A stretch of DNA of 64,000 bases from Leadbettera azotonutricia ZAS-9. Lineage in GTDB: Bacteria > Spirochaetota > Spirochaetia > Treponematales > Breznakiellaceae. The notes under the pieces are model-generated. The model ran no database searches. It was not told where the DNA came from and saw only the letters and a list, made by a program, of their open reading frames with translations. Made by a program: the position numbers and the translations under genes. Below are positions 23,642 through 54,948 of the stretch, piece after piece; position 1 is the first letter of the stretch, and the number at the start of each line of letters is the position of its first letter. The stretch lies in assembly GCF_000214355.1 (NCBI RefSeq), contig NC_015577.1, positions 2,064,453 to 2,128,452 on the forward strand. Direction: 5' to 3'.

Positions 23642-25000
23642 TCAATTTAAAGTTACCCACTGTCCTGTCTTGTCAGAACCCTCCCGTTTGATAATGTTTT
23701 TTTCGGTCAATATTTTTATATTGCGTAAAATCGTTCGCCGGCTCACTGCTATTTCGGCTACCATCTTATCGATTGTGATTCCCTTATTTGCGTTTATCAG
23801 CAAGAGGATTGATTTTTGGGTTTCGCTTAAATCGTTCTTTACAGTGCCATTTACAGTGCCATTTACAGTGCCATTTACAGTGCCATTTACAGTGCCATCG
23901 CCCTCATTTCGTTCAAAATCACTTGCATAGGGGAATGTCACCACGATAAAGCTCGGGGTAATTTCAAACACGGAACGGTCGTATGCTTCCAAAATGCGCC
24001 GCATACCGGAGCCTAAGCCTTCGACGAGTTCCACGTCTTTGAACACGCGCATAAGTTCACGGTTGCGGAGCATGGAACGACCGGCAAAAAAGTCCTCTTG
24101 CGACAAGCCTTCCACAAGCCCGCCGGTAGAAGTGATGGTCACTCTGTCGGAAAAGAACTCAACGACGGGCCAACCTAAATTGTAGTCGTTATGAACTACG
24201 GCGTTTATAAATGCCTCTCTCAGGGCAACCGGATTAATAAGTTTCCGCTCCAATCGGTTGCGTGGAGTGATTTTTGCGAAGGTCTTATTCTCGACTGCCA
24301 ACTTATCAAGGACACGATATATCGATGTTATCAAACATCGATAGCCGTATTCCTCATTTTCAATCAGGTCAATTTTATCAGTTCCCGCATATTTAGCAAC
24401 TTTAATTGATGCGCCGTTGCTGTCTGCCAACAGGTACGCGAGAAGATTATACGAGCTGTCGCCGGTACGCAAGTCAAGATTTTCTTCAAACTGGTCATTC
24501 AGCGTTAAACCGAGTTCGTTGTAGTAGATATGAAGCTGCTCAAATGTCAGCTTTTGCCGCGATACCGGTGTGGTGGCGAGGGAGTTTGCCTGCCTGTGCT
24601 GAAGCTGCCGCTCAATCATCGCTTCGGTCATCGGCTGGGCAGAGGCGCCTACCCGGATGAAGCAGCCATCCTCAGTCATTCCTTTCTTGCGGATATAGTA
24701 GGGTTTCTGCATTCCGCTCGATACAACTATGCGGATAATATTTTTGCCGTCCATTTCTTCGGCAACTACATCAAATAATCCCAAAATCTTTGGACGGATA
24801 TTATTACCAAGCCTATCGGTAATCTTACGCTGTTCGGCATCGGAATTGGCAACACCGACAACTGAGCCATCATCGTCAACGCCAATGAGTATTTCGCCGC
24901 CGCCATTATAATTAAGAAAGGCCACCACGGCTTTTTCGAGCTTGTCGCCTTTGTCGGCTTCGCGCTTGTATTCAAGGCGGTTGGATTCCAAGTTAGCCAT
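23642..25000 (-). CDS. AlbA-type (Schlafen-like) ATP-binding transcriptional regulator
   Basis: A 452-residue protein with the N-terminal AlbA_2/Schlafen-AAA domain (ESNRLEYKREADKGDKLEKA, AFLNYNGGGEILIGVDDDG), a GHKL-like C-terminal segment (RNRLERKLINPVALREAFIN, FFSDRVTITSTGG, GLGSGMRRILEAY), and a winged helix at the end (KMVAEIAVSRRTILRNIKILTEK). Proteins of this family are usually annotated as DNA-binding or RNA-binding regulators; some act in defence. Between the domains is a run of NGTV repeats. It is the last gene of an operon of four, sharing ATGGCTAA with the nucleotidyltransferase gene. Confidence 0.88.
   Translation of the reverse strand: MANLESNRLEYKREADKGDKLEKAVVAFLNYNGGGEILIGVDDDGSVVGVANSDAEQRKITDRLGNNIRPKILGLFDVVAEEMDGKNIIRIVVSSGMQKPYYIRKKGMTEDGCFIRVGASAQPMTEAMIERQLQHRQANSLATTPVSRQKLTFEQLHIYYNELGLTLNDQFEENLDLRTGDSSYNLLAYLLADSNGASIKVAKYAGTDKIDLIENEEYGYRCLITSIYRVLDKLAVENKTFAKITPRNRLERKLINPVALREAFINAVVHNDYNLGWPVVEFFSDRVTITSTGGLVEGLSQEDFFAGRSMLRNRELMRVFKDVELVEGLGSGMRRILEAYDRSVFEITPSFIVVTFPYASDFERNEGDGTVNGTVNGTVNGTVNGTVKNDLSETQKSILLLINANKGITIDKMVAEIAVSRRTILRNIKILTEKNIIKREGSDKTGQWVTLN
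23841..23898. repeat. 12-bp tandem repeat inside the AlbA-type gene
   Basis: ACAGTGCCATTT repeated four full times plus a partial fifth copy. Being a multiple of three, changes in copy number keep the frame and add or remove NGTV units in the linker between the ATPase-like part and the winged helix. Confidence 0.9.
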
Positions 25001-25325
25001 AAATTTTTATCCCTTTGGTCGATACTATCCTTTCGATTGTTGTAATACCAGTGGAGCGATCTAAAAACTTACTCTTTTTATGTACCAGTAAATCTATAGC
25101 ATGATTTTGTTTCTTATATATTGCAAGACCTACGGCCTCTATAGCTTCCATTTCCCGTATTGGGGTCTCATCTTTTAGGACTATATATAAATCAAGGTCG
25201 GAATCCTTATGCGGTATTCCATAGGCATAGGATCCAAAGAGATATATCTGCTCAACCGGGATTGTTTCTGCGATGATTTTGGTGAGAATATCAAGTTCAT
25301 TTCTAATGGAGTCTATGTTATTCAT
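24993..25325 (-). CDS. MNT-type nucleotidyltransferase domain protein (second of two)
   Basis: A 110-residue minimal nucleotidyltransferase from the ATG at 25325 (MNNIDSIRNELDIL). It has the GSYAYGIPHKDSDLDLYIVL motif, with Gly-Ser and the two metal-binding Asp residues intact. In HepT/MntA pairs the MNT protein modifies the HEPN toxin with AMP and so silences it. It follows the HEPN gene with an 8-base overlap (ATGAATAA) and precedes the AlbA gene with another 8-base overlap. This MNT is paralogous to the one at 25733. Confidence 0.85.
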   Translation of the reverse strand: MNNIDSIRNELDILTKIIAETIPVEQIYLFGSYAYGIPHKDSDLDLYIVLKDETPIREMEAIEAVGLAIYKKQNHAIDLLVHKKSKFLDRSTGITTIERIVSTKGIKIYG

Positions 25326-25740
25326 TTTCCTTTTCGGCCATCTCGATTTCAACAATAGATACCTTCATTAAGCAAAAATCGTATACTTGCTTTGCTTTGT
25401 CTAAAACCGATTTTGTTATTGCTTCATCAACATCCAGTTCATTCGGATAACGGGTAAGAACGCCATAGCCTGTTAAATCTGCACAGTAGGGCCTGATTAC
25501 TTCAAAAGCCTTATCCAGTTCAAGGCAGAGGGAATTTAATAAACGCAGGTCATGTTTTTTGGGAGGTTCAATATCCTTAAAAAATAAATATCCTTTCAAA
25601 GATTTTTCTGCTGATTGCTGGCAATGATAACAGGCAATTTCCAATAATTTGGGATATACATCATTAATAGCATGTTGAGCAATAATCAAATCATTGCTTG
25701 CATATTGAAACCATTCTTTTACAAGTTTAATATCAGCCAT
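25318..25740 (-). CDS. HEPN domain protein
   Basis: A 140-residue protein from the ATG at 25740 (MADIKLVKEWFQYASNDL); a longer frame upstream overlaps the MNT gene. The HEPN helical core is shown by ACYHCQQSAEKSLKGYLFF and PKKHDLRLLNSLC, and a later TRYPNELDVDEAITKS. HEPN proteins are typically RNases or RNA-binding toxins, but the Arg-x4-6-His motif is not clear here, so activity is uncertain. It sits between two MNT genes. Confidence 0.85.
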   Translation of the reverse strand: MADIKLVKEWFQYASNDLIIAQHAINDVYPKLLEIACYHCQQSAEKSLKGYLFFKDIEPPKKHDLRLLNSLCLELDKAFEVIRPYCADLTGYGVLTRYPNELDVDEAITKSVLDKAKQVYDFCLMKVSIVEIEMAEKENE

Positions 25741-26053
25741 ATAATAATATACCTTCTTTATTAATTTTTCGTTCAATCGTCGGCTGTGAGCTGCGATATT
25801 CAAACCGATTTTTGTAATTTGCAAGTACATCTATCGGCATTCGTGTGTTGAAATTCATCAAGCTTCGATTTATCATTTCCATAGCAATAATCGGTTTCTC
25901 AGGAAAATCATCTTTTAGCACTACATAAAAGTCATAATCGCTGTCGGCAGTTGGTGTACCGTAAGCATAGGAACCGAACAAATATATTCTTTCACAGTCA
26001 ACGCTGTTGAGGATTATGTCTTTTATTTTTAGAATTTCTTCATTTATTGGCAT
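25733..26053 (-). CDS. MNT-type nucleotidyltransferase domain protein (first of two)
   Basis: A 106-residue minimal nucleotidyltransferase with GSYAYGTPTADSDYDFYVVL, so the Gly-Ser and Asp-x-Asp motifs are present. It is the first gene of the MNT-HEPN-MNT-AlbA operon and overlaps the HEPN gene by 8 bases (ATGGCTGA). It is a clear paralogue of the MNT at 24993 (compare the ends GILLYG and GIKIYG). It may AMPylate the HEPN partner, by analogy with MntA. Confidence 0.85.
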   Translation of the reverse strand: MPINEEILKIKDIILNSVDCERIYLFGSYAYGTPTADSDYDFYVVLKDDFPEKPIIAMEMINRSLMNFNTRMPIDVLANYKNRFEYRSSQPTIERKINKEGILLYG

Positions 26054-26140: not shown

Positions 26141-28309
26141 CTATTGCATCATCTTATTATAATGTCCCTCATAACCACTCTCAACAAATACAAGTCTAAA
26201 TGCATCTTTAAAAGTATTATAATCAAATTCCTTGATGTCAAAGATATTTTCCCCTAACGAATGCGATTCTTTATTTATATATCGATAAAAAGCTTGGTAT
26301 TTAACATCTTGTAAACTTTGTTTCTGAAACACATTGGCCAATTCCATTTTCTCAATAAAATTAAAAAAATACTCAATGATGTTGCGCATGCAATTTGCAA
26401 TTAATGCGGGTGAATAATTTATATCTTTTATAACATCCCAGTAACTATGGTAGTCATTTTGAATCTCATGATAATGCATAGACTTTATCTCAGCACCATT
26501 ACTAGTCTTTATCAGTCTATATAAAGCCATATACTGTTTTCGATCCTCTTGTTTGGTAAAAGTCAATTCATAAAAAAAGTATAAACTATGTGTTAAGATA
26601 ATAACTTGGTCATACTGACTTTTTGGATTAGTAAAATTATTCTTTATAAGTAGACCGATGTTGAATACATAAATATGAGAAAGGGAAGATATAGGATCAT
26701 CAATGACAATAATTTTACCTGTATTCGTATCCGAGGCAGATTTCTTACCTTTGCAGAGTTCAATAAAATAAAGAAAACTTATTATCATTTTCTCACCCTC
26801 ACTGAGCGTCTTAAATGTATCACCTTTTTCATTGATTCTTGTAATCTTGTATAAAACATCTGTGTGTTTTTCAATTTTAAAGGAATCAATACCTAAATCA
26901 ATAAGTTCATCACTGATAACACGCACTGCTTCATCAATATTGACAGTTTTTTTCTGCTGTTCAGTAATATATTGTTTCTTTTTTGATAATTCGGTACTAA
27001 TGGTCGATAATTTCTCCTTTATTTTCCCCACTTTTATTTCACTTTGGCTCTTTTCATTAAGAAAATTTGAAATGGTCTGATCATATTCCCAACGCATGAT
27101 TTCCCAAAATATTATTTTAATTTTATTTAACGAAGACTCTTTATTGTCAAGTCTTGCATTGTGTTCAGTAATTTCTTTATTCACGTTTTTTATAAGATCA
27201 TTAAAATCATTTACAACAGTAGTCGAGTCGATGAAAAATATTTTTTGGCTAGGCGATTTAATTTTATCTTCAATAGCTCTTTTGTTTTGCGAAACGCATT
27301 GCAATACAGATTTATATCGGTTTTCAAAATCATCTTTTTTACCAATGATGAAAGGGTTTGATATAAATATTTCTTCCGATGGAATAGCGTTCATGCTATT
27401 AGTATAAATAGATGACAGTCGCTTTATTTCCTCAATATCAAGTGTATATGTGCCATCAAAATAATTTTTTATTTTGTTAGCTAAAATAGAATTGACTGTC
27501 GTTTCTTGACAAAAAGGACAAGGAATGGTTTTATCTCCGATTTCAGAAGGCAAATAATCCAATCCCGCTTTCACCCAATCAGAATTTCCCAACTTTGTTA
27601 TCAATTCGGAAATAGTACTATTTTCGTTACCAACAATCGATTTTTGAAATATCGAATTAGTTTCAATCTCAGTTCCATCAAAATTTATCAGTGGTAATTC
27701 GTTGTATTTTTGCGCAGCGTTCCCTTTTAGAGATTCGACATCTTCTTTTAATTTGGCAATCGTCATTATTGGCTGAGATACTGGTTTTGACACTTGTAGT
27801 ATATGGGTGAAAAGAGATTCTTTTTTGCCCTGCAATCCTGTTAGGCAATATTCTAAAACACGATCCCCACCAGTGTATTTTTGTTTTATATTCCATACTG
27901 TATTTTCCGCTTCTTGTTTTTTACGCGATATTTCCAAATTAGTTTCTTCGAGGATATTATTTTGGTTTTTCTGTTCATCATCCAAGTTATGTATTTCTTT
28001 TTCGGTTTTTAAAATAGTTTCTTCAGCAACTTTGTTTTCTTTCGACAAGGTAAAAATACCCTTTAAAGTATCACTTTCATAAAAATATTCACTGATAAAA
28101 CGCTGATTATAGACAAGAATATCCTCATTGGCTAATCCTTCAATAGCACAATATTCATAATTTGGGTCATTCCTATCATAGAGATAGTTTGAAAGAGTGC
28201 TTTTCCCTGTTCCATTTAAACCATAAATAAGATTAACCTTTTTATTAGTAATAAGAGCAGTGCTGTCTTTATAACAAGCAACATTATTCATAGTTATTTT
28301 CGTTATCAT
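26141..28309 (-). CDS. RloC/PrrC-like AAA_13 ATPase, putative anticodon nuclease
   Basis: A 722-residue protein. Walker A is YGLNGTGKSTL (about residues 29-39), the ABC signature is LSEGEKMIIS, and Walker B is KIIVIDDPISSLSH. Coiled-coil arms in the middle carry a zinc-hook-like CPFC (residues 264-267), as in RloC. Near the C-terminus Arg642 and Glu646 (RNIIE) are followed by His683 (NKESHS), matching the spacing of the Arg-x3-Glu...His triad of PrrC-family tRNA nucleases. PrrC and RloC cut tRNA anticodons when a linked restriction system is disturbed. The gene overlaps the methyltransferase by ATGA and ends the operon. Confidence 0.8.
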   Translation of the reverse strand: MITKITMNNVACYKDSTALITNKKVNLIYGLNGTGKSTLSNYLYDRNDPNYEYCAIEGLANEDILVYNQRFISEYFYESDTLKGIFTLSKENKVAEETILKTEKEIHNLDDEQKNQNNILEETNLEISRKKQEAENTVWNIKQKYTGGDRVLEYCLTGLQGKKESLFTHILQVSKPVSQPIMTIAKLKEDVESLKGNAAQKYNELPLINFDGTEIETNSIFQKSIVGNENSTISELITKLGNSDWVKAGLDYLPSEIGDKTIPCPFCQETTVNSILANKIKNYFDGTYTLDIEEIKRLSSIYTNSMNAIPSEEIFISNPFIIGKKDDFENRYKSVLQCVSQNKRAIEDKIKSPSQKIFFIDSTTVVNDFNDLIKNVNKEITEHNARLDNKESSLNKIKIIFWEIMRWEYDQTISNFLNEKSQSEIKVGKIKEKLSTISTELSKKKQYITEQQKKTVNIDEAVRVISDELIDLGIDSFKIEKHTDVLYKITRINEKGDTFKTLSEGEKMIISFLYFIELCKGKKSASDTNTGKIIVIDDPISSLSHIYVFNIGLLIKNNFTNPKSQYDQVIILTHSLYFFYELTFTKQEDRKQYMALYRLIKTSNGAEIKSMHYHEIQNDYHSYWDVIKDINYSPALIANCMRNIIEYFFNFIEKMELANVFQKQSLQDVKYQAFYRYINKESHSLGENIFDIKEFDYNTFKDAFRLVFVESGYEGHYNKMMQ

Positions 28310-31300
28310 ACCTTACCTTCCACTACCTTAACCTCTTCTTCCGTCAACCCATACAACTTATATACAATCTTATCAATCTGCGTCTCAATCTGCGTAGTAT
28401 CTGCTGTTGGATTGGCGGCTTTGGCGACAAGTATTTTGCTAACAAGCTCAATAAATTGTCTTTGTTCTGTTGGAATTCGTATCGGTAGTTGTTCAATTTC
28501 ATACCCGCCGACATGATTATTCGTGCTAGTTTTGCGAAAATACCAATCTAATAATTTGCTGTTTAATAAAGAAAGAAAAAATAAGTTATTCTCAGGGTTT
28601 TTTAATCGAACCTTATTGGCGGTATGTCCAAAGAGAAATGGTTCCCCTGTATTTGTCAGTGCAAAATGCAATCGCCACTTATCAACTGTTCCTGTAACTT
28701 CTTGGCAAACCAAGAAAGTATCGTTTTGGTTTGCTGTTACAAGTTCCGTCTTATAATTTGGTTTGATAAATTCATCAGTATCATAGTTAATATAATATTT
28801 GGAAATATTCCTACCTCTAAGTAGTTTTATTCTTGTTTTTGAATTAATAATATATGCCTTTGAAGTAGTTAAATTTATATCACCTTGGCTTATCGATTGT
28901 ATTATATCTCTAAATCGTATAGAGATATTATTTATTTTTCTTATAATATCAAATTCGCCATTTTTTACTAACGGAATATTAAACGAATCAGGATAAATAC
29001 ATCTTATTGATTCTTGGACCATTTTCTCAAATGACAAGCTTTTTAAAGTCGTTGTATCATTGTTAATTGAGATACTAAATATATATCCAGATTCAGGGAT
29101 TGATTTTGTAACCACAGATATACAAGTACCCTGCAATACAGATTGAAAAACTTGACCGAGATGTGATGGTGCAATTTTTGGAAATTCAATTATATATATT
29201 ATTTTACATTGAGTTAACAATAGTTCTCGTGTGTATTGGGAACTTAAATCACAAAGTAAACTACTCTGTGTTATCAAACATTGACAACCATTATCTTTAG
29301 AAAAATTATATGCCGCTTCAATAAAAACTTTATATAAGTTTTGTTTGCCCTTGTCTTTACCTTCGGAGAAGGGGAATGTGTCTTTAGATACACTTCCTTT
29401 AGGAATTTGCTTATACGGCGGATTCCCAATCACCACATCAAACCCATCTTTTATGCCAAACATAATTTCACTGTCAAAAAAAGGTGAAGCATAGCAAACA
29501 CTAAAAGGATTCCATGCATTAACCTTTTCTATTTCATCGGACGCCATATTGTTGTTCTTTAGCAGAGTAATCAGTTCCAGTTTTTTGGCTTCAAAGCTAT
29601 TTTTTATATTCTCTTTTTCTTTTGGCGTTTTTGCCTGTGTGAACGGCGTAAAAACAGAAGTGAGTTCCTTACATTTTGCAAACAATTCTTCATTAAATAA
29701 ATCAGCGCCTTTTAAGTTAAGCCCAATCAGAGTATTTGCCGTAACAAATTTAGTTTCCAAATTCGGTAGCACTTCAAAATCTTCAAGCTTGACAGGTATT
29801 TCATAATCAACAAGTAGAGAAATGAAAAAACGGAGTTTAGTTATTTCTATCGCAATATTTTGAATATCAATCCCATAAATGCAACTGGTAATTATGTCCA
29901 ATTTGTTTTTGTAAGTTGTTTTATGTTCCTGCAATTTTTCTATTGTTCGAACCATTAGGTTAAACATTCCCATGGGAAACGCACCAGAACCACACGCAGG
30001 ATCAAGGATTTTGAGATCAGTAATGGCAGATATTATTTTGTTTTTTTGTGGGAAATCAAGTTTATCTTCGTGTTCGTCAATAAGTTTATTAATACTATCT
30101 GTCAAATTGGGGAAACGATTTTTCAAACTTTCTTTTAGACTTTCTTTACACATATAATCTACAATTTCACGCGGAGTATAAAAACTGCCTGTATTCTTGC
30201 GGTCGTTGGCAATTTGCTTTGTTTCGGGATTATATGCGCCAATCAGATTTTCAAATACAGTCCCCAAAAGTTCAGGGTCAAGTGCGACCACAATATCATG
30301 CGGTGTATTTTCCTCAATAGTAAATGCATAATCAGTAAAAAGGTCTATGAGTTGAAATATTACACTATCGCTCAATTTTACTCGCTCTTTTGGATTATCA
30401 CTAAAGCCATCAATAATGTAATTCTGTTCTATGTTTTTTTTGTTGCTAATGATATCGAGTCCCGAAAATTTATAATCGTGGCAAGTAAATAAGCCGCCGT
30501 TTACAAAAGGAATATTTCTGGTTTTTTCAATAAATTCATCAGCCTTACCATCCTTAAAAAAATCTTTAAATCTAAATACGTCAGAAATACCATAGTCATT
30601 CTTTTGGGGGTCATAATGATTAGCATTATCTTGTTTTCTAAAACGCCGTTCATTAATTTTTTTATTCAAAACTGCAAAAAACAAATTTTGCAAAACGGCG
30701 TTATAATAAACATTTTCATGCTTTAGAAATTTTGCATTAAATTCTCTGGTAAAAAAACCACTTTCGATTAAACCTTTTTCTTTCATAAACCAAATAAACA
30801 TAAGCCGTATTATAATGCGTATCACCGCCTGTGGCTTAAGTTCATCGTCAATCTTTTTGTCAAGAATCTTGCTTGCCATAGATAAATCAATTTTAATATC
30901 GTTTAAAGCAATGTCATACCATGAAGCCAGCTTATTGTAGAATTCCTTATTAAGAACCTCAACAGAGAAACGGCTTTTTAAGTCCGAATCATCTTTAACT
31001 CGTCCCTTCTCTATCAAATACTGCTGTGGGGTCTTTACTTTTGCATCGCGCCCTAAAATAAAAGAATATCGCCGAGGATTGGAATAATCCCGTTTAACCT
31101 CGCCTTTATCATTTACCACGGGAGTAAATTCAACTAAAGAGAAACGATAGAAATCGTCATTGTTCTGGGGAACAAATAGAACCAAAGCTCTGGCGTGTGA
31201 AGTATAATGATAAACAACGCGAAAAGCATCTTTGCTCAAACCTACACGAGCATCATTTGTTGACTTATGTTTAATTTCAAATGCCGTTAATCCTAATGAG

Positions 31301-31452
31301 GCGGACTCACCTAGTTTTGTAACAGCTTGGGTATATTCAAGTTTTTCAGTAAAAGATACATCTTTTTCATCAACAGTAAAATCATCAGGTAAAAATGAAT
31401 CTTCGAGGAAAGACAGCCATGCCTTGCGATTATACTTTTCTTTAAAATCCAT
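28306..31452 (-). CDS. Eco57I-type restriction-modification methyltransferase
   Basis: A 1048-residue protein. Motif I is LDPACGSGAF (from residue 484) and the catalytic motif IV is NPPY (677-680), typical of N6-adenine methyltransferases. PTGSFYTPREIV-like GSFYTPREIVDYM precedes motif I. The C-terminal third is a target-recognition region (IEQLPIRIPTEQ). The N-terminal 200 residues contain LTAFEIKHK, a possible half of a nuclease motif, but the full motif is not evident. The gene is joined to the helicase gene by TAATG and to the ATPase by ATGA, so all three are co-translated. Confidence 0.88.
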   Translation of the reverse strand: MDFKEKYNRKAWLSFLEDSFLPDDFTVDEKDVSFTEKLEYTQAVTKLGESASLGLTAFEIKHKSTNDARVGLSKDAFRVVYHYTSHARALVLFVPQNNDDFYRFSLVEFTPVVNDKGEVKRDYSNPRRYSFILGRDAKVKTPQQYLIEKGRVKDDSDLKSRFSVEVLNKEFYNKLASWYDIALNDIKIDLSMASKILDKKIDDELKPQAVIRIIIRLMFIWFMKEKGLIESGFFTREFNAKFLKHENVYYNAVLQNLFFAVLNKKINERRFRKQDNANHYDPQKNDYGISDVFRFKDFFKDGKADEFIEKTRNIPFVNGGLFTCHDYKFSGLDIISNKKNIEQNYIIDGFSDNPKERVKLSDSVIFQLIDLFTDYAFTIEENTPHDIVVALDPELLGTVFENLIGAYNPETKQIANDRKNTGSFYTPREIVDYMCKESLKESLKNRFPNLTDSINKLIDEHEDKLDFPQKNKIISAITDLKILDPACGSGAFPMGMFNLMVRTIEKLQEHKTTYKNKLDIITSCIYGIDIQNIAIEITKLRFFISLLVDYEIPVKLEDFEVLPNLETKFVTANTLIGLNLKGADLFNEELFAKCKELTSVFTPFTQAKTPKEKENIKNSFEAKKLELITLLKNNNMASDEIEKVNAWNPFSVCYASPFFDSEIMFGIKDGFDVVIGNPPYKQIPKGSVSKDTFPFSEGKDKGKQNLYKVFIEAAYNFSKDNGCQCLITQSSLLCDLSSQYTRELLLTQCKIIYIIEFPKIAPSHLGQVFQSVLQGTCISVVTKSIPESGYIFSISINNDTTTLKSLSFEKMVQESIRCIYPDSFNIPLVKNGEFDIIRKINNISIRFRDIIQSISQGDINLTTSKAYIINSKTRIKLLRGRNISKYYINYDTDEFIKPNYKTELVTANQNDTFLVCQEVTGTVDKWRLHFALTNTGEPFLFGHTANKVRLKNPENNLFFLSLLNSKLLDWYFRKTSTNNHVGGYEIEQLPIRIPTEQRQFIELVSKILVAKAANPTADTTQIETQIDKIVYKLYGLTEEEVKVVEGKV

Positions 31453-34400
31453 TATAGTAATTCCTCGCTTAAAATAATGCTTTCCTTGCCTTCGTCAATA
31501 TCACAGGCCATTTTAATAACCCTGTCCAGAAAGTCCTGGTCTATCTCCTGTGGCAACGTATTGAATTCAGCAGGTTTTAGTTGGCGGATAAATTGCATTG
31601 AGAGGCCTGAAAGGGCGCCAATTTCTGTAACATATTGTAGGTCCTTTATGTAATCACTATTTAAAGTGCCACTTTGGGCAATGGCGTTTATTTTATCCAG
31701 AACTTCACGTTTTTGTTTATCGGTCTTTTCGGTAACAGTAGTCTTGAAAAGTCCTTGCTTTATGATCTGATAAATAGCATCAAAGCTTTCCGAGACCGGC
31801 TTTGCCTGTTCAATAATATCTGCTTCAAGTAATTTAAAGGCATCTTCTTCTGCAAGAATTTCAGAATCCAGTAAATCCCTGGACATTTTGAAAACACAAG
31901 TGTCTTTTTTCCGGCCAAACATCAAAACACCTCTGCGGCCTTTATCGGCTGTTCTCCCTACACGGGAACGATGGGGAATGGTTAAGGCGGTTTCGTGCTC
32001 TTTTGTGCCTTTGGCTTCTTCTAATAATCGCTTGTATTTTGTTTCCCAGCTTTCAACTTCGCTTGCATTAACCATTTTCCTGTATTGGTCAGCAAAGAAA
32101 GAGCGGAGCTCTATATCGCCAGTAAGGACTTTAGTATCTTCGCCGATTATGGCGTTAATCATCGCCATTTTGAGGGTCGAGATTTCCTTGGTGCGGGTTT
32201 CACTTTCGCCAATGCTTGTGGGGAAATAGTTATAGATATAAAGGCGATCAAATACTTTTTTGTTGATACGGTTAATTCGGCCTACACGCTGAATTACACG
32301 GGTGGGATTATAGGGAATATCATAATTGAATACGGTTCCTGCGCGGTGCAGGTTATAGCCTTCTGAAATAGCGTCAGTAGCGACAAGAATATCATAATCA
32401 TTATCCTGGTTTTTCTTTCCTGCGTCAAAGTTACGTTCGATAATGGCCTTGTTTGTTTTATTCGATTCTTTTGATGTATATTTAAATACGCGCAAAGCGC
32501 TTCCTTTTAGTTTTTCATAAAGATCATCTATGGTATCAGCGTAGGAACTGAAAACGATAATTTTGCGTTGTGGATCGTTTTTAATCTGGGATGATATAAT
32601 TTCAGCAAAATGGTCACGCTTTGGGTCGGCCAAGTTTATGCCTTTTCCAAACCAGCTTTGCTGAATTTGTTCCAGTATTTGAATATCACCCTTTATATCA
32701 TTTACAAAGGCATCATCAAAATAGTCTGTTTCAAGTTCAAACAAGCCCTTTGCTTCGAGTTTGCTTAATTCAACTTCAAAGGTTGAATCGGCAATTTCCT
32801 CAGCAAAAAGGTCATCGGTACTGGCATTCTCTTTATAAATCTCTTCTATGTCGGGCAAGTATCCTCTTTTAAAGATAGGCACTTTACCACGCTTTTCTAT
32901 CCAGTTTAAAATATTACGAGACGTAGAAATCATCCTGCCCAAGGATATTTCAAAGGCTTTTCTGGAGCTTTCAAACCGCTGGACAAGCATTCGCCGCATG
33001 AATTTTGAAAGGTTACTTTGGGTTCCGATAAACAGGTTATATTCAATCCCTGCTTCTTCAACTCTTTTCTGGAGCCTTTCTTCAAACTCCGGTTTTACAT
33101 AGGTTACTGCGTTATAGCGGGCGGCTTGATAGTGTGGCCGCATAGCGTCTGCTTCGATAGACAAGTCAGGTGAAATTTGCTGCAAGGTATCAAGGTATAA
33201 ATCTTTTATATCGCCCAAATCATATTCGAGAGCTTCGGGGTCGCCGGTTTCGGCAAAGCCTATTTTTTGCTTTTCGAGGTCTTCCTTATATGAGGGAATT
33301 CCCAGTAAATCGAGCCGGGAACGGCGAATTACCAGAGGGGAAATGATACGGCGGATCTGACCTGCGATTTTATCTACTTCATTTTTTAGCGTTATTTCAT
33401 CAATTGTTTTTTTACGCTGTTGCTTTCGTATATCATTGTATTGGTTAATCAGCTCATTAAAGCGGAATCCAAGGTTATCAACGGATTTTAATGTTGATTT
33501 AAGGGGTAACTGGAACAATTTAACCATCGAATAAATATCAGAGGGACGGTTATTAAATGGGGTTGCGGTTAAAAGCATTACCTTATTACCACGGCAAAGG
33601 TTGTGTAAATTATTATAATCGGAGGTAAGCTCATTACGGTATTTATGGGCTTCGTCAATGATAATGAGCCAAGGCTTGCCAAAGGTTGATTTTTCCTTGA
33701 AGTATTCGAGGGCTGCCTCGGTTTTACCGGATGAATAAACCACTGCGTGATAGTTAAAATCGGCTGCATAATCTACCCATTGGGGTACCAGATGCGGGGG
33801 AGCCACGATGATAATCCGCAAGCCTAAATTATGGGCAACGGCTGAACCGATGATACTTTTCCCCAAACCAACAACATCGCTGATTATAACGCCATTATGG
33901 GTTTCTATTGTCGCAAGGGCTAATTTAATGGCGTCTGTTTGGTACTTAAGATCATAGAAATAATCATTAATATCATGGGCGGTCTTGAAATCTTTGTCAT
34001 AGTTGACCGAAAAATACTCATCCAATACCCGGAGAAAAAAGCAGTATGGTTTATAGAGTTTTTCGTACCAGATTTTTTCGATTACCGCATTTTCAAATTC
34101 GGCCAGATTGTCTTTGTCGGCAAGGATGACGGCGCTTTCCCATAGCTCATCAAATATTTTTTTCCCTTCTTCGTAATCGGACTTATCCCGGAGAATGGCG
34201 TTTAATTCCAGGCGGCCTTTAAGTCCCTGAAACGTGAGGTTGCTTGAACCGGTGATAAGGGATCCCGGATAGGAATCGCCTTCGTTATTTTCTGGCGCGT
34301 TTTCAAACAGGTACATCTTTGCATGATTGCTTTCTTTGGTCTTGCGGATTTCCAAGGTTCCTTCTTTTATTTTGGTCAAAAAGAGGGTAAACGCTTCCTG

Positions 34401-34718
34401 GGCTTTTTCACTGTCAAAGTAGTCCGTTTCATTGAAAAGATCGGCTAGGGATTCATAAAAGGTAGCTTTAAGAGCGCCCCGAGTTTGCTTCTCTGTTGTG
34501 TGATAATCAACCTCGCGGACACGGTTTATCATGTCCTGTTCGATTTCAAGGCCAACAAGAACCCGGAGATGCTTGTCTTTAAGCCCCTGGTAAATCTCGG
34601 CAAAACCGGAAAAATAGAAATAGCCGACCAGAAATGAGGCGTTTTGAGCTTTGGGCAGTATACTCTGGATGATTTCGGAGAGGAATTTGCCGTTCTGATT
34701 GGTGATGAAGCTACCCAC
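31452..34718 (-). CDS. PLD-like nuclease fused to SNF2-family helicase
   Basis: A 1088-residue protein. The N-terminus is a phospholipase D-like domain with His132-x-Lys134 (NHAKMYLFE) and GSSNLT (157-162), a single HKD half that would need to dimerise. Then an SF2/SNF2 helicase: DVVGLGKSIIG (Walker A, Lys288), IIIDEAHKYRN (355-358), LLTATPFNN, and DILVATDAISEGYNLH and QRVGRINRINKK in the second RecA lobe. Such PLD-helicases translocate and cut in several defence systems, including Mokosh-like ones. It is the first gene of the three-gene operon, and an IS element lies 45 bases upstream of its start. Confidence 0.88.
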   Translation of the reverse strand: MGSFITNQNGKFLSEIIQSILPKAQNASFLVGYFYFSGFAEIYQGLKDKHLRVLVGLEIEQDMINRVREVDYHTTEKQTRGALKATFYESLADLFNETDYFDSEKAQEAFTLFLTKIKEGTLEIRKTKESNHAKMYLFENAPENNEGDSYPGSLITGSSNLTFQGLKGRLELNAILRDKSDYEEGKKIFDELWESAVILADKDNLAEFENAVIEKIWYEKLYKPYCFFLRVLDEYFSVNYDKDFKTAHDINDYFYDLKYQTDAIKLALATIETHNGVIISDVVGLGKSIIGSAVAHNLGLRIIIVAPPHLVPQWVDYAADFNYHAVVYSSGKTEAALEYFKEKSTFGKPWLIIIDEAHKYRNELTSDYNNLHNLCRGNKVMLLTATPFNNRPSDIYSMVKLFQLPLKSTLKSVDNLGFRFNELINQYNDIRKQQRKKTIDEITLKNEVDKIAGQIRRIISPLVIRRSRLDLLGIPSYKEDLEKQKIGFAETGDPEALEYDLGDIKDLYLDTLQQISPDLSIEADAMRPHYQAARYNAVTYVKPEFEERLQKRVEEAGIEYNLFIGTQSNLSKFMRRMLVQRFESSRKAFEISLGRMISTSRNILNWIEKRGKVPIFKRGYLPDIEEIYKENASTDDLFAEEIADSTFEVELSKLEAKGLFELETDYFDDAFVNDIKGDIQILEQIQQSWFGKGINLADPKRDHFAEIISSQIKNDPQRKIIVFSSYADTIDDLYEKLKGSALRVFKYTSKESNKTNKAIIERNFDAGKKNQDNDYDILVATDAISEGYNLHRAGTVFNYDIPYNPTRVIQRVGRINRINKKVFDRLYIYNYFPTSIGESETRTKEISTLKMAMINAIIGEDTKVLTGDIELRSFFADQYRKMVNASEVESWETKYKRLLEEAKGTKEHETALTIPHRSRVGRTADKGRRGVLMFGRKKDTCVFKMSRDLLDSEILAEEDAFKLLEADIIEQAKPVSESFDAIYQIIKQGLFKTTVTEKTDKQKREVLDKINAIAQSGTLNSDYIKDLQYVTEIGALSGLSMQFIRQLKPAEFNTLPQEIDQDFLDRVIKMACDIDEGKESIILSEELL

Positions 34719-34763
34719 GGGTATATTCTACCCTTTTCACCCCTACTTTGCAAGGATACGCGT

Positions 34764-36162
34764 TGCCTCATAAATAATCTAACCCAAAACAGGGAATGCC
34801 TCATAATAAAATTCTAACCCAAATTATGTAGCCTATATCCGGTAACAAGGGTACCGGAGGGCTCAATGGGGTTAACGATGAAAGAGAAACAGGCGCTTGC
34901 CAGAGAAATCAGCAAGCGGTATCGCAAAGCCGGGAAAAAGGGCAAGACCGCTATCCTGGACGAGTTTGTCCAGAACACAGGGTACAACCGGAAATACGCC
35001 CTGCACCTTTTGGCGAATTGGGGGAGAACGGAACTGGTCAGACTGGCCGGAAGGGTTGTTAAGCTCAAGGCCGATGCGTTTAAAAAACGAAAAGCAGGGG
35101 GAGGGCGGAAGCCGGTCTACCAGGCGGCAACGATAAAAGCCCTCAAACTGATTTGGGAGTTCTTTGATTACATGTGCGGGAAAAGGCTTTCCCCCTTCCT
35201 CCGGGAACAGATGCCTTTCCTCAATCCCTGCAAGGAGTTTGGCATCACCAAGGAGGTAAAGGCGCAGCTGCTTGCCATAAGCCCCGCCACCATCGACCGG
35301 AAGCTCAAGCCTGAACGGAAGAAGCTGGAATTAAAAGGACGGAGCGCCACACGGCCCGGCGGCCTCCTCAAGCACCAGATCCCCATCCGTGTCTTTTATG
35401 CCTGGGATGAGAGGAAACCGGGCTTTTTTGAGCTGGATACGGTGGTTCATGACGGCGGAAACGCCTCAGGCGAGTTCTGCTGTACCCTCAATGCCACCGA
35501 TGTCTATTCAGGCTGGGTGGAGCTCCGCGCCCTCCTCAACAAGGCCCATCGCTGGGTTAAAGAGGAGGTGTCTCTCTTCCCCTCCCAGTTTCCCTTCCCC
35601 CTTTTGGGCATCGACAGCGATAACGGCGGGGAGTTCATTAATTACCAGCTCAAGGCATGGTGTGACGAACACCGCGTCCAGTTCACCCGCAGCCGTTCCT
35701 ACCACAAGAACGACAACTGCTTCGTGGAGCAGAAAAACGACATGACCGTCCGCAGGACCGTGGGGTACTATCGCTATGACACCCTCCAGGCCAGAGACGC
35801 CCTGGCCGAGGTCTACCGCCATCTCTGTCCCCTGCTCAACTATTTTTACCCTTCAGAAAAAATAATCGCCAAGGAGCGGATAGGGGCCAGGGTCAAGAAG
35901 GTGTACGACAAACCCAAGTCGCCCTACAGGCGCCTCTTGGAATCCCCTGACCTTCCTGATACATTCAAGGACGAGCTTCGACGCAGGGCTGCCCGTCTCA
36001 ATCCGGTCAAACAGAAACGCCTGGTCAACCATGCACTGATGGCTCTCTTCGAGCTTCAGAGCCAGAAGTCCCTTGCTGCTTCGGCTCTTGAAGATGTTTA
36101 GCCACGGTTAGATTTTTATTGTGAGGCAGCCGTTCCTTTCGGTTAGATTTTATTTTGAGGCA
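34764..36162. mobile_element. insertion sequence with doubled terminal repeats
   Basis: Ends are defined by TGCCTCA at 34764 and its complement TGAGGCA ending at 36162. Each end has two copies of the pattern TGCCTCA, A/T-rich, TCTAACC, about 35 bases apart. One transposase gene fills the interior. The flanking bases give no certain target duplication. It is inserted between the helicase start and the HIRAN gene. Confidence 0.8.
34866..36101 (+). CDS. integrase-core (DDE) transposase, ISNCY-like
   Basis: A 411-residue transposase. The N-terminus has helix-turn-helix character (KTAILDEFVQNTGYNRKYALHLL). The integrase-core region shows ELDTVVHDGG (first Asp), LLGIDSDNGGEF (second Asp) and SYHKNDNCFVEQKN (Glu), so the catalytic triad is present. 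The family is probably ISNCY or IS1202-like; the group assignment is not certain. Base composition is higher in GC than the flanking AT-rich genes, indicating a recent arrival. It appears complete. Confidence 0.85.
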   Translation: MGLTMKEKQALAREISKRYRKAGKKGKTAILDEFVQNTGYNRKYALHLLANWGRTELVRLAGRVVKLKADAFKKRKAGGGRKPVYQAATIKALKLIWEFFDYMCGKRLSPFLREQMPFLNPCKEFGITKEVKAQLLAISPATIDRKLKPERKKLELKGRSATRPGGLLKHQIPIRVFYAWDERKPGFFELDTVVHDGGNASGEFCCTLNATDVYSGWVELRALLNKAHRWVKEEVSLFPSQFPFPLLGIDSDNGGEFINYQLKAWCDEHRVQFTRSRSYHKNDNCFVEQKNDMTVRRTVGYYRYDTLQARDALAEVYRHLCPLLNYFYPSEKIIAKERIGARVKKVYDKPKSPYRRLLESPDLPDTFKDELRRRAARLNPVKQKRLVNHALMALFELQSQKSLAASALEDV

Positions 36163-36352
36163 TTACGGGATAGGATGAGACCTTTATTGAGATGAAAAAA
36201 TTGATGGAATTTGGACAATTTGAGGTAAAAATGACATTATGTGATAATTTGTCATAATAAATGTTTCAACTGCTCTAAATTCCAATGGTTTTTGAGGAGC
36301 TTATGAAAGTTTATTGTCCCACGTGAGCTGATTGACCAGGCGATTACCTGTT

Positions 36353-36751
36353 TTAATCGTCCAGGTAAATTTGCATTGAAACATTCAGCCAATCGTCACG
36401 ATACTCTTTCTCGTGGATGGTCCCATAAATCAATTTCCCGGCATCCATAAGCCTGGCTAAAACTTCATTTTTATTGCGGGGGACATAACCGATTTTATTA
36501 CCCTGGTCATCTTTTACTACAATGGCAAGTTTATCATGGGGGTTTTCCGGCTCCCGGTAAAAATTCAATTTTTTTCCTACTACAAGGTTCGGCTCCAATT
36601 CTTCAATGTTATCAACGTACATGGTTCCGGCGATATGAGCATCAACCAAATAAATCTGCTTGACGAAAGGTTTCCCGGCTGCTTTAAGGGTGTCTCCACT
36701 GTGAAGGATACTTATAATATTTGTTTCATCAAGTTTTATGATGTCGTTCAT
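36353..36751 (-). CDS. HIRAN domain protein
   Basis: A 132-residue protein with the HIRAN fold in residues about 28-130: VDAHIAGTMYV, GKKLNFYREPENPHDKLAIVV, and GNKIGYVPRNKNEVLARLMDAG. HIRAN domains recognise DNA ends or stalled forks and often accompany helicases in defence loci. It overlaps the J-domain-like gene by 4 bases. The next gene in its direction across the IS is the PLD-helicase, so both may once have been in one operon. Confidence 0.88.
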   Translation of the reverse strand: MNDIIKLDETNIISILHSGDTLKAAGKPFVKQIYLVDAHIAGTMYVDNIEELEPNLVVGKKLNFYREPENPHDKLAIVVKDDQGNKIGYVPRNKNEVLARLMDAGKLIYGTIHEKEYRDDWLNVSMQIYLDD

Positions 36752-37563
36752 TGGGCGCCTCCGGTTAGATCATTCAATCTTTGTTCATATTGGATATAAA
36801 TGGCATTATATTCATCAATTTTGTCTGTTAGTTCCTGTTTTTTCTGATCTACCAATTCAGGGCTTTTCAGGAAATCAAGCTGATTGTACGGGAAAGATTT
36901 TTTTATGTCTTCGATACTGGCATTGATATTGATAATCCGTTCCTGCAAAGAGGTATGCCTCTTTTTTAATTCTTCCGTAGTATTTAATTTCGAGGACTTA
37001 GGATCTGGTTTATCAACCATGAGGCTGATTGCAGAGAGGGACTCATAATCGCCTGTTTTATAGGCTTCGACTGCTTTTAAGAAAAGTTCATTTTTTGCCT
37101 TATCGGGTTCTGGTAATAAATCGGGATGCAGTTTTTTGACTATGATTCCATACAGTTTCTTTACATCTTTAGCCTTGTCTTTGTCGAGAAAACCACTTTC
37201 CTTGCGGTTAAGGGCATTTTGGAAAATATCGTATTGGGCTTTAAGTTTTTTTGTATATTCTTCATACTCGGTATCTAACTGTTTTTCTATGGTTTCGAGG
37301 ATAAATGTTTCCTGGCGGTTTATTTTTTGGCGGATTAATTCTATTTTGCGTTTTATGCGTAATATCTGGGTTTCTTTTTCGTAAAGATTATATTCCAGAG
37401 CGCCGATTTTTAGCATGTATTCCATTTCAATATTTTTGCATATCTGGTATTGTAATTCGTCTTTTTCAAAGTACAGCGCAGCCAGTTCATCTTGTAGTTG
37501 ATGAATATCAGATAGTAGATTTTGAAATTCCTCATGGAAGGCGATGGTTTGCTTCTTTGCCAT
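36748..37563 (-). CDS. coiled-coil protein with J-domain-like HPD motif
   Basis: A 271-residue protein that is mostly coiled coil (residues 10-130 and 195-265) with a compact central segment: YGIIVKKLHPDLLPEPDKAKNEL (HPD near residue 148), then FLKAVEAYKTGDYESL. The helix-HPD-helix layout is that of a J domain, which would recruit a DnaK-type chaperone. No DnaK is nearby. It lies 2 bases after the ATP-grasp gene and overlaps the HIRAN gene by 4 bases. Its role in this cluster is unknown. Confidence 0.75.
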   Translation of the reverse strand: MAKKQTIAFHEEFQNLLSDIHQLQDELAALYFEKDELQYQICKNIEMEYMLKIGALEYNLYEKETQILRIKRKIELIRQKINRQETFILETIEKQLDTEYEEYTKKLKAQYDIFQNALNRKESGFLDKDKAKDVKKLYGIIVKKLHPDLLPEPDKAKNELFLKAVEAYKTGDYESLSAISLMVDKPDPKSSKLNTTEELKKRHTSLQERIININASIEDIKKSFPYNQLDFLKSPELVDQKKQELTDKIDEYNAIYIQYEQRLNDLTGGAQ

Positions 37564-37565
37564 AA

Positions 37566-38456
37566 TTAGTTGATACCTTTATTGAATAGAGAATATACAT
37601 CCTGATAAAACTTGTTTTTATCTTCTTTCTCAGGTATACCAGCAACCTGACCATCGCCAAGTTCTATTATTATGAATTTGTCATTTTTTGTTTTGGCAAT
37701 ATCCATTGTAAAAAAGTTACTGCTAATGGAAATTGCGATTTCTTTAAATTGTTTAATATCAGGAAGCTCGGTATTGTACTCACCTTCTTCCCAGTAATTA
37801 TAGATCTCCAAAAGACTATGATTAAGAAAAAAAAGGCGATATTCTTCGGATAAAGGCATGTTGCTTTTTGAATGGACTGAAATGTTTTTAAGGTCTATAT
37901 ATTCTCTAACAACAATTCCAACATTGAGGGATGAACCACGAAGGTCGATAAATGTTTTTATGACTTCCCTTAATTTGGATGAATTAGTTGCATCTTCTAC
38001 AAAACAGGCATTTTTCCAGTAATGCTTTTCTGATTTTACATAATCCTTTATAATTACCGGGTTAGGGCCAAAAATTTTTGCTTCTTCAATTATAAAGTCA
38101 ATATCATTTTCATCTTCATGTTTTTGAAAAATAGTCTTTGGCGTGTAATTACTGATAAACTGAAGGCTGTCAGGTAAATAATGACAGTTTTCATATTCTT
38201 GGGGTTCATTTATAAGTTTATAATTCTTCTTAAAAAGCTGCGCGTATAAATCGCTATATTGCCGGGAAGTCAGCATCCATCCCCTATAGATTATCGTTTC
38301 AGGATTGTCTGTGGGTACGATTCTACTGGTGGACAAATTATCATAATCAAAGAGGAGTGTTTCAAATCCAGCGTTTTTTGCTGCAACATATTCTTCAGCA
38401 AATGCTTCATCAGGTTTGTAGGGGTATAATGCGCTTTGACTGAAAATTATTTTCAT
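37566..38456 (-). CDS. ATP-grasp protein (DUF4343-like)
   Basis: A 296-residue protein with an ATP-grasp layout. The N-terminal pre-ATP-grasp part (MKIIFSQSALYPYKPDEAF) is followed by PVIIKDYVKSEKHYWKNACFV (Lys binding site, about 134-154) and VGIVVREYIDLKNI. The final metal-binding strand is FIIIELGDGQVAGIPE. ATP-grasp enzymes join a carboxylate to an amine or thiol by way of acyl phosphate. The substrate cannot be told. It is the first gene of the ATP-grasp, J-like, HIRAN set, and has its own upstream gap of 88 bases. Confidence 0.82.
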   Translation of the reverse strand: MKIIFSQSALYPYKPDEAFAEEYVAAKNAGFETLLFDYDNLSTSRIVPTDNPETIIYRGWMLTSRQYSDLYAQLFKKNYKLINEPQEYENCHYLPDSLQFISNYTPKTIFQKHEDENDIDFIIEEAKIFGPNPVIIKDYVKSEKHYWKNACFVEDATNSSKLREVIKTFIDLRGSSLNVGIVVREYIDLKNISVHSKSNMPLSEEYRLFFLNHSLLEIYNYWEEGEYNTELPDIKQFKEIAISISSNFFTMDIAKTKNDKFIIIELGDGQVAGIPEKEDKNKFYQDVYSLFNKGIN

Positions 38457-41258: not shown

Positions 41259-42572
41259 CTAAACCGCTCTGGCCTCTAAAGGCAGAATATCCCCGAACGC
41301 CTCCACCTGCGCCTGTTGCATCTTTTGGCGGTCACCGTCAAGAACATGATCAGAATAATGATCCAGCATGACTAAAGATTTATGGCCGGTTTGTTTTTGC
41401 AGCAGTTTTTCATCAATACGGGGCCTCTTGTATGCCGTGAAAAAATGCCTCCAAGCGTGGAAAGTATAGACCTTCGCGGTTTCCATGGACATACCGGTCT
41501 GAACAAGGGCGTCCCGGAGGTCATCAAGCAGGAGCCGCTCTTCAAGGGGCTTGTCCGCTTTCAGGGCTGCCCAGAATATAAATGAATCCATGTTACAGCC
41601 ATGCGGGTTTTGCGCGGCCAGATTCATCATGTCCCTGATGATGCCGGGGAAAGGCAGCTCCACCCGCCGGGGTTCATTGTTCTTGGTTTCCTTAAGCCCT
41701 TCGAGGCGGTTGAAGGAATGGCGGATATAGAGGCAGTCCTGCCCCATGTCCTGAACCCGCAAGGCTTTTATTTCCCCGGAGCGCAGTCCCGTGACTGCCG
41801 CAAGCAGATTCCCCAGCCGGGTACGTTCATCCTTCCATGATGCGCGGAATACTGCCGCCGCCTGTTCGGGGCTGAGGATCTGCCGTTCCTTCGTCTTCCC
41901 GGAAAACCAGATAATCCCTGCGGATACATCCTTTTCTATCATTTCCCGGTTGAACGCCCATTTCAGGGCGATGGTACCGGCCCGGATAACCATGTTTTTC
42001 CAGGGGGCCGATGTTTCCTGACTCCCTATGGAATCGATAAAGGCGTTCAAGTCCTGCCGGGTTATCTCCCCCAAAAGGCGGCCAGAAAAATAGGGCTTCC
42101 AGCATCGTTCCACTGCCCGGGCCATTTGGCGGCAGTGGGTTTCGTGGAGGCTGTGTTTTTTGCGAAGTTTTTCTTGGACATAGGGGCTGCGCTTCCAGTC
42201 CCAGAACTCGGTGAGGAATTCAATCAGATCCCGGGCCTTGTCTGTGCCGGTCAGGATATACCCCTTCAAAAAGCCCATGCGTTTAAGCTCTTTCAGGATG
42301 GTTTCGGCTTCCCGCTCGGTGGATATGCCATGAACCAGGCTTTTCAGGGAAAGCTGCTTGACCTGGACCTTTTCCTGCTTTTGGGGGATGCCCTCTTGAA
42401 GCCACTGGAAAGCCACTTTGAAGGCTTCCGCCTCCGTGGCTTTTTTGGTTGAGACAGGCGGCATAAATTTTCCGGTTTCGTCTTTGAAAGCCACTGAATA
42501 ACAGGGCCGGTTAGCCCTTTTGAAAATGGAGAACGGATAATTGTTCACGTTCACACCCTCCGGAAACGGCAT
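41259..42572 (-). CDS. tyrosine recombinase (integrase) of element 1
   Basis: About 437 residues from the ATG at 42572 (MPFPEGVNVNNYPF). I prefer this start over 42674 because the paired arm repeats lie just upstream of it, as in element 2. The N-terminal SAM-like DNA-binding part is at about residues 155-230 (YFSGRLLGEITRQDLNAFID). The catalytic residues are Arg in TGLRSGEIKALR, HxxR in HAWRHFF, then His in QTGHKS and Tyr in MLDHYSDH. It catalyses integration and excision at the tRNA-Tyr anticodon-loop region. Same overall layout as the element 2 integrase, with low sequence identity. Confidence 0.92.
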   Translation of the reverse strand: MPFPEGVNVNNYPFSIFKRANRPCYSVAFKDETGKFMPPVSTKKATEAEAFKVAFQWLQEGIPQKQEKVQVKQLSLKSLVHGISTEREAETILKELKRMGFLKGYILTGTDKARDLIEFLTEFWDWKRSPYVQEKLRKKHSLHETHCRQMARAVERCWKPYFSGRLLGEITRQDLNAFIDSIGSQETSAPWKNMVIRAGTIALKWAFNREMIEKDVSAGIIWFSGKTKERQILSPEQAAAVFRASWKDERTRLGNLLAAVTGLRSGEIKALRVQDMGQDCLYIRHSFNRLEGLKETKNNEPRRVELPFPGIIRDMMNLAAQNPHGCNMDSFIFWAALKADKPLEERLLLDDLRDALVQTGMSMETAKVYTFHAWRHFFTAYKRPRIDEKLLQKQTGHKSLVMLDHYSDHVLDGDRQKMQQAQVEAFGDILPLEARAV

Positions 42573-42582
42573 TGAGAACGGC

Positions 42583-42612
42583 TTTTTGTGTCGTTCTATG
42601 TGTCGTTTTTTT
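42583..42612. promoter_or_regulatory. paired GTGTCG repeats, candidate integrase arm site (element 1, right end)
   Basis: GTGTCG at 42588 and 42600, 12 bases apart in the same orientation as at 20421 and 20433, again with flanking T-runs. It lies immediately upstream of the integrase start, which may let the integrase repress itself. Confidence 0.6.
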
Positions 42613-42687
42613 CCGTATAGGATAATGAACGCCCTCTGTAAGGGTAGTTCAATTTGTAATTCCTTGCAACGCAAGGAATTAACTCAC

Positions 42688-48356: not shown

Positions 48357-48602
48357 TTACTCCTTATACATAATATGTGTATCTGATGTATATTCTGTAT
48401 ATTGTGTATACAAAATATTTAAATACTCTCTACGCCCTTCTGTTCTAAAAATCCTATCAGGAAAGACTTTATGGATAGGTCGATACATTTTGCGATTTCT
48501 AAAAACAAAATCAATGGCGGCCCCTTCTCGATGTTCCAGAAGGGAATTTTTAATACTTTCTGGGCAAAAGGAATCCGTTTTCAAATTGCTTTTACGGATC
48601 AT
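48357..48602 (-). CDS. small protein upstream of parA
   Basis: About 81 residues from the ATG at 48602 (MIRKSNLKTDSFCPESIKNS). The frame is open much further upstream, but that part translates hairpins and AT-rich repeats and is unlikely to be coding. The recognisable body (EHREGAAIDFVFRNRKMYRPIHKVF, FRTEGRREYLNIL) is basic and could bind nucleic acid. Its end reads through the TGTATA repeats. A second copy with a changed end is at 49578. Confidence 0.5.
   Translation of the reverse strand: MIRKSNLKTDSFCPESIKNSLLEHREGAAIDFVFRNRKMYRPIHKVFPDRIFRTEGRREYLNILYTQYTEYTSDTHIMYKE
48366..48416. repeat. TGTATA-type iterons upstream of parA
   Basis: The short stretch contains TGTGTAT, TGTATAT, TGTATAT and TGTGTATAC at about 10-14-base steps, with the last also forming GTATAC. 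Such phased repeats ahead of parA are candidates for the partition site or for a replication origin. Confidence 0.55.
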
Positions 48603-48772
48603 GATGTTTTTGTAAGAAACTTTTGCAATTTTCAATAAATATAGTGTGTATAAGATGCATCTTATGTGTATTGTGTATGTAATGTACACTATGTATAATT
48701 TAAAAACATATAATATTTGAGCTTCATAGTAGTAAAATCTGTATATTACATAGGTATTAAATTGTTTAAACA

Positions 48773-48842
48773 GTGGCTTTGAAAAAGCCACTAACTTACT
48801 AGGGACTTTTTCAAAGTCCCGTAAGCCAAAGGGTTTCACCCT
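48773..48842. repeat. three consecutive hairpins downstream of the relaxase
   Basis: GTGGCTTT/AAAGCCAC (48773-48791), GGGACTTT-TTC-AAAGTCCC (48802-48820) and AGGGT-TTC-ACCCT (48830-48842). The same set is repeated 1185 bases on. They could end transcription of the relaxase gene, or be part of a single-strand origin. Confidence 0.75.
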
Positions 48843-48883
48843 CTGGACTCCCACAAACAACAGCAGCACCTTACTACATAATT

Positions 48884-49588
48884 TCATATTTTTCTTCCTC
48901 CGCCAAGATTTATCTGTGAGCTTAATATTCTGACCATTTTTCTTTCCCTTATCGCAGATATCTCTTCTATTGGTTTCTCAGCCAAATCCTTTTCCGCAGT
49001 TTCCGCTCGAAACTTCATTTTTTCATATTCAAACTTTAAAGTGGTATGCTTTGTGTTTAACTCCTTATAGTCGATGATCAACTTTTGAAAAGCGGCCTTA
49101 ATGCCATTAAAGAAGTCGGTAATAGTTTCCTGAACCCCATCCCGCCAAGATTGTTTGTTCATCAATGGAGGATCAGGAATTTGAGGAATTTCATATTTAA
49201 AGGCTTTTTCGCTTTCGTCCAAAACCTTCAATTTGTTTATTATCTCAATATTCTGCTTTATATTCGCTTTCTGAGTTTCCACCATCACTTGCTTTAAATG
49301 CTCCGTTTCCGCTATCTCACGGCTTAAAGTTTCTTCCTTTTGCCGGTTTGAATTAATAAGCCCTTCAAGCTCCTTTTCCTTTTGTTGAATCTTCCCAAGA
49401 TAGGTTTCTTCATTATGTTTATACTCCCCAAGCGAGACATGCCTTGCCCTTGAGCCTTCTTTACCACGCCCCAAACCAAAATTTTTACCAACCATTTCAT
49501 ATAAATCCGTATGTAGTGCCTTTATATCTTTTATCCCGCCAATGAAATCAGATGATGAATATTTACAGCCGGATTTATCAAAGACCAA
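48884..49588 (-). pseudogene. relaxase 3' fragment (duplicated)
   Basis: A 234-codon open frame identical to the last 233 codons of the relaxase at 50069, beginning at the duplication joint. It lacks the relaxase catalytic region (the HFDETTPHIH motif), so it is a by-product of the duplication. The only available start is a TTG. Confidence 0.85.
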
Positions 49589-49787
49589 AGGTATACAAAA
49601 TATTTAAATACTCTCTACGCCCTTCTGTTCTAAAAATCCTATCAGGAAAGACTTTATGGATAGGTCGATACATTTTGCGATTTCTAAAAACAAAATCAAT
49701 GGCGGCCCCTTCTCGATGTTCCAGAAGGGAATTTTTAATACTTTCTGGGCAAAAGGAATCCGTTTTCAAATTGCTTTTACGGATCAT
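49578..49787 (-). pseudogene. duplicated copy of the small gene, altered end
   Basis: Same as the gene at 48357 up to NILYT, then the duplication joint replaces the end with FGL and a stop. About 69 codons. It is probably without function. Confidence 0.6.
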
Positions 49788-54938: not shown

Positions 54939-54948
54939 TTTCCGCTCC

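Follow-up and report, generated by a model that had tools for sequence, protein, structure and literature searches.

Six genes that lie side by side on one strand may form one defence system or may merely be neighbours, and a locus of the termite-gut spirochaete Leadbettera azotonutricia ZAS-9 raises the question of which of the two applies. The host genome is complete (3,855,671 bp), and a stretch of 64,000 nucleotides from it (the window) was analyzed. A first-pass annotation of the window had described six minus-strand genes in two tightly coupled blocks, parted only by an IS and about 190 bases, and had proposed that all six form one defence system. ORF calls and domain searches of the window confirmed the layout: the six ORFs were found at exactly the positions annotated, with their motifs intact, and 185 bases separate the IS from the HIRAN stop codon. 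The gene identities (R2K_3, J core, HIRAN, PLD-SNF2, Eco57I and RloC-type) were likewise upheld by domain scores and motifs. The single system was not. We favor, at a probability of roughly 0.7, two functionally separate neighbouring cargo modules, namely a restriction-like operon with an RloC back-up (block B, 34718-26141) and an R2K gene with a J-HIRAN cassette (block A, 38456-36353). The features are as follows.

37566..38456, minus strand: R2K family 3 ATP-grasp ligase, block A gene 1 (296 aa; R2K_3 domain)
36748..37563, minus strand: coiled-coil protein with an embedded J-domain core, block A gene 2 (271 aa; HPD at 146)
36353..36751, minus strand: stand-alone HIRAN protein, block A gene 3 (132 aa; fold match to the HLTF HIRAN domain)
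34759..36167, plus strand: IS (1,409 bp; integrase-core transposase at 34866-36101)
31452..34718, minus strand: PLD(HKD)-SNF2 helicase, block B gene 1 (GTG start; 1088 aa)
28306..31452, minus strand: Eco57I-type N6-adenine DNA methyltransferase with a TaqI-like specificity domain, block B gene 2 (1048 aa)
26141..28309, minus strand: RloC-type protein, predicted anticodon nuclease, block B gene 3 (722 aa; ABC ATPase, zinc hook, triad)

The tight coupling within the blocks was also borne out. R2K and J are 2 nt apart and J and HIRAN overlap by 4 nt, while in block B the overlaps are 1 nt (helicase and methyltransferase) and 4 nt (methyltransferase and RloC). Since the IS is flanked by a perfect 5-bp target duplication (GGATA at 34754-34758 and 36168-36172), and since at least nine further copies at 99% or higher identity occur in the host genome, it represents a recent insertion into an existing intergenic gap. 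Once the IS is removed, the blocks are about 220 bp apart; thus, an existing neighbourhood was split by it.

Block B and its likeness to known systems

The helicase contains PLDc_2 and SNF2/Helicase_C domains (Pfam) with a complete set of motifs, i.e., HxK (HAK) at 132, GSSN at 157, Walker A at 282, DEAH at 355 and QRVGRINR at 810, and carries one HKD-type site. The methyltransferase contains Eco57I and TaqI_C domains (Pfam), with DPACGSG at 484 and NPPY at 677. A conserved D...ExK nuclease motif is absent from its N-terminal region in 15 aligned sequences, which leaves the HKD domain of the helicase as the likely DNA cutter, as judged from the motifs. A type IIG restriction enzyme was rejected on the same alignment, where the N-terminus has no conserved PD-(D/E)XK motif.

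Helicase relatives occur in 39 of the 393 genomes sampled from the phylum, and a methyltransferase relative is adjacent to or near the helicase in the majority of loci with a readable neighbourhood. The pair also occurs on a Parabacteroides plasmid, where AlbA_2 and TIR genes adjoin it and the helicase is 51% identical; DNA of the window's cluster itself had no match on plasmids. The accessory genes at helicase loci vary, and include AlbA_2 (genomes G080 and G185), AAA_21 (G035) and a YhcG-type nuclease with an AAA_21 ATPase (G005). The order helicase-methyltransferase-RloC is contiguous in G271 and is kept in G005, where the YhcG-type nuclease and the ATPase are inserted. Block B is thus a real operon.

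Its closest counterpart is found among the DUF499-centred, "Hma"-like systems related to Type-2 BREX, in which an N-terminal HKD nuclease is fused to an SNF2 helicase and accompanied by an N6-adenine methyltransferase, an arrangement proposed to act in restriction-modification-like fashion (PMC12839542). Both the HKD-SNF2 helicase and the N6-methyltransferase are present in block B, but DUF499 and PglZ are not, and its third gene is of the RloC type. The DUF499 ATPase (PF04465) is absent from the whole host genome, as is PglZ (PF08665), and the methyltransferase scored 81.6 against a cut-off of 500 for the PglX model. A DUF499-centred Type-2 system was rejected on the first of these absences and BREX on the missing PglZ together with the PglX score; by its domains, block B resembles the HKD-SNF2/N6-methyltransferase arm of the Type-2 BREX-related systems and is not a member. 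To DISARM class 1 (DrmD and DrmMI), the relation of the SNF2 helicase and the adenine methyltransferase is a remote one; however, PLD is fused to the helicase, no DrmA/B/C-like gene was noticed among the neighbouring ORFs, and the helicase scored 112 bits against the DrmD family cut-off of 610, on which DISARM was rejected. The phospholipase D-like anti-phage protein NF042964 was also rejected (89.7 bits against a curated cut-off of 1100). Block B is a new pairing of known parts.

The RloC-type gene and the predicted working of block B

RloC proteins were defined as having 658-897 aa, a split ABC ATPase, a CX2C zinc hook and a C-terminal Arg-X3-Glu-X36-52-His triad (PMC2610378). The window's protein, which matches AAA_13 (Pfam) at 367 bits, is 722 aa long, with GLNGTGKST at 30, CPFC at 264 and LSEGEK at 502. 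Its triad is R642, E646 and H683 (spacing 36, Ser before His), of which the Glu is not conserved in every aligned relative. Size, ABC motifs, zinc hook and an Arg-X3-Glu-X36-His triad with Ser before His are all shared with RloC of Geobacillus kaustophilus (PMC2610378), but the window's copy is linked to a PLD-SNF2/Eco57I system and not to a type I or III restriction-modification enzyme. RloC membership also includes an activity, zinc-responsive tRNA anticodon cleavage with wobble excision; for the window's protein, tRNA cutting is inferred from its sequence.

Because an RloC-type gene stands beside the helicase at only three helicase loci, the window's included, its link to the helicase-methyltransferase core is occasional. 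Elsewhere, with neighbours judged from sequences and not by family scan, relatives lie in a type I restriction-modification locus (G152), beside Dam-like methylases (G056, G117 and G036) or with no evident restriction-modification neighbour (G185, G048 and G101). The G152 copy (L071, 8713-10914) contains an internal stop. In a 15-sequence tree, the three helicase-methyltransferase-linked copies do not form one group, and at least two changes are required by the starred branches, so that RloC appears to have been recruited to the core separately at least twice. On account of these separate positions, RloC looks like a module repeatedly plugged into restriction loci, as was earlier proposed for HEPN ribonucleases by comparative work (PMC3710099).

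The same distribution bears on a different explanation, in which helicase and methyltransferase alone make up an ordinary restriction system and the RloC-type gene travels with them as an independent passenger, triggered separately by DNA damage. In other bacteria, RloC mostly lacks a link to restriction-modification (PMC2610378), three relatives here lack such a neighbour, and only three helicase loci have it alongside. However, the gene overlaps that of the methyltransferase by 4 nt, and the gene order recurs in G271, where RloC was separately recruited. We therefore regard the independent passenger as unlikely, and a three-gene, ATP-dependent restriction-modification-like system with RloC as its fail-safe as plausible from the gene set.

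Gene content, order, motifs and the recurrence or non-recurrence of linkage were observed directly; the activities, the logic of restriction and the trigger of RloC are all predicted from them as follows. The methyltransferase would mark self DNA. On unmarked DNA the SNF2 motor would translocate, presumably with the methyltransferase/TRD as site reader, and cutting would fall to the N-terminal single-HKD nuclease, probably acting as a dimer. The RloC-type protein would act as a second line: its zinc-hook/ABC part may sense DNA breaks or failed restriction, upon which its HEPN-type C-domain would cut tRNA anticodons and stop translation. The logic of the first-pass annotation, i.e., modification and helicase-nuclease attack followed by tRNA cleavage, thus fits block B, given its intact motifs and the gene order in G271 and G005, but does not extend to six genes. 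PrrC-EcoprrI likewise combines a restriction system with an anticodon-nuclease back-up, and in block B a regulatory interaction between the two is a putative one; PrrC-EcoprrI differs in having a type I hsd enzyme and a short PrrC without a zinc hook. An RloC on a PLD-SNF2/Eco57I core would widen the principle of restriction plus tRNA cutting beyond type I and III enzymes.

Block A and its relation to block B

The first protein of block A belongs to R2K family 3 (R2K_3, 110 bits against a Pfam cut-off of 26.3), part of a described ATP-grasp clade (PMC4431377). The second scores 15 bits as a single sequence against Pfam DnaJ, below cut-off; a profile of 45 J-like sequences matches solved J-domain structures (E 7e-07), and HPD is invariant in all 45. 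In an AlphaFold model (pLDDT 87), the J core lies between long helices, and HPD falls between helices II and III (model helices 128-145 and 155-170) as in a J-domain. A whole-chain Foldseek search of this protein returned coiled-coil noise only. The third protein has a HIRAN domain (65 bits, Pfam), is well conserved among relatives, and in its model resembles the HIRAN-DNA structures of HLTF (E about 1e-06).

A genome-wide scan with the J-protein alignment yielded 52 J-like loci in Firmicutes, Fusobacteria, spirochaetes, Bacteroidetes, Verrucomicrobia and Methanobrevibacter, with HIRAN directly downstream of J in 46. Of the other six, two are at a contig end and four, from "Spirochaetia bacterium" genomes, have J alone. 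R2K was absent from the DNA covered, up to 10 kb on each side, at all of these 52 loci outside the window; it occurs in three of 60 genomes of the family, in the other two of which it is not beside J-HIRAN. R2K was accordingly rejected as a fixed partner, there being also an R2K relative in G479 without J or HIRAN. A truncated R2K relative in G016, several kb from the methyltransferase and on the opposite strand, was taken as chance.

Neither a description nor a function of the J-HIRAN pair was found in the literature searched. The likeness to HIRAN-HipA(HipI)/diDNase clusters (PMC11706625) is that a stand-alone HIRAN gene and a partner gene lie in genomic islands, but in block A the partner is a J-domain coiled-coil protein, not HipA or diDNase. 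On domain content, J-HIRAN appears to be a widespread, uncharacterised co-chaperone/DNA-binding cassette, here with an R2K gene in front. HIRAN probably has DNA ends or single-stranded DNA as its target, with DnaK probably brought by the J protein to whatever assembles there. A more specific proposal, that the pair is an undescribed two-gene DNA-repair or anti-invader device in which HIRAN senses such DNA and the complex bound there is remodelled through DnaK, is rather doubtful.

The neighbours of J-HIRAN vary. McrBC, HsdR, MmeI, a metallophosphatase-NTPase, hsdMSR-like or cas-like genes occur at some loci and housekeeping genes at many. For example, the pair lies downstream of hsdM-, hsdS- and hsdR-like genes in G372 (L179, 1698-10243) and adjoins genes resembling type I CRISPR cas genes in G240 (L180, 2678-3900). 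That J-HIRAN is itself a small mobile module for defence or DNA repair, prone to insert into defence islands, and that its place by block B reflects this habit, would account for a conserved pair with changing neighbours, for detectable restriction-modification genes within 10 kb at 11 of the 52 loci and for the gene sets of L179 and L180. It agrees less well with the housekeeping neighbours and with the PADLOC hits, which by coarse family counts are not clearly more frequent in the nearest genes than beyond 5 kb. We consider this explanation a tentative one, somewhat short of even odds. No J-HIRAN pair was confirmed on viral contigs, and plasmids gave no J-like gene and only two partial HIRAN matches. 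With restriction or CRISPR genes nearby in a minority of loci, J-HIRAN may have a defence role.

That R2K, J and HIRAN serve as sensor or regulator arm and helicase, methyltransferase and RloC as effector arm of one six-gene operon, recently split by the IS, would explain the common strand, the tight spacing within blocks and the short distance between them without the IS; moreover, some genomes have McrBC, HsdR, MmeI or cas genes next to J-HIRAN. Linkage argues strongly against it. None of the block B genes (helicase, methyltransferase and RloC) is present in the DNA covered, up to 10 kb on each side, at the 52 J-HIRAN loci. J was sought in 34 genomes, of which 33 carry the helicase and the other is G479; a clear J-like gene was found in one, G016, at a distance of 0.8 Mb, and one weak match in G207. 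Across the 393 phylum genomes, J-like genes occur in 10 and the helicase in 39, with an overlap of two where about one is expected by chance. The first-pass annotation had itself offered the co-occurrence of the two blocks as a point on which its proposal could fail, and in no sampled locus outside the window's genome are they linked. One six-gene system was rejected on these three samples, and we consider it highly improbable.

Thus, block A is not a component of block B. Counter to this separation, the blocks are adjacent on one strand in ZAS-9, at a single such locus, and on that locus a local functional link between them may exist. Of the two modules favored here, block A holds the greater novelty in its J-HIRAN pair, which the analysis exposes as widely conserved.

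Surroundings of the locus

Downstream of block B, and directly adjoining it on the minus strand, is a HEPN-type ORF (25318-25830), followed by an MntA-like nucleotidyltransferase (24993-25355; 34 bits, below the cut-off of 60) and, at 23642-25000, a protein with relatives among the SLFN_AlbA_2 neighbours found at other helicase loci. The region 23642-25830 resembles a toxin-antitoxin pair with a further gene attached. Farther away, an 826-aa protein (16744-19224) matches primase-polymerase-like (PrimPol_Msp, 94 bits against a cut-off of 200) and XPB-like helicase families.

Two tyrosine-integrase-like genes (41259-42674 and 53757-55243, the second beside tRNA-Tyr and tRNA-Thr) suggest nested integrated elements around the region. 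A duplication lies within 48357-51205: the ORFs 48357-48887 and 49578-50072 are near-identical, and most of 48884-49588 is identical to the C-terminal part of 50069-51205, a mobilisation-like protein.
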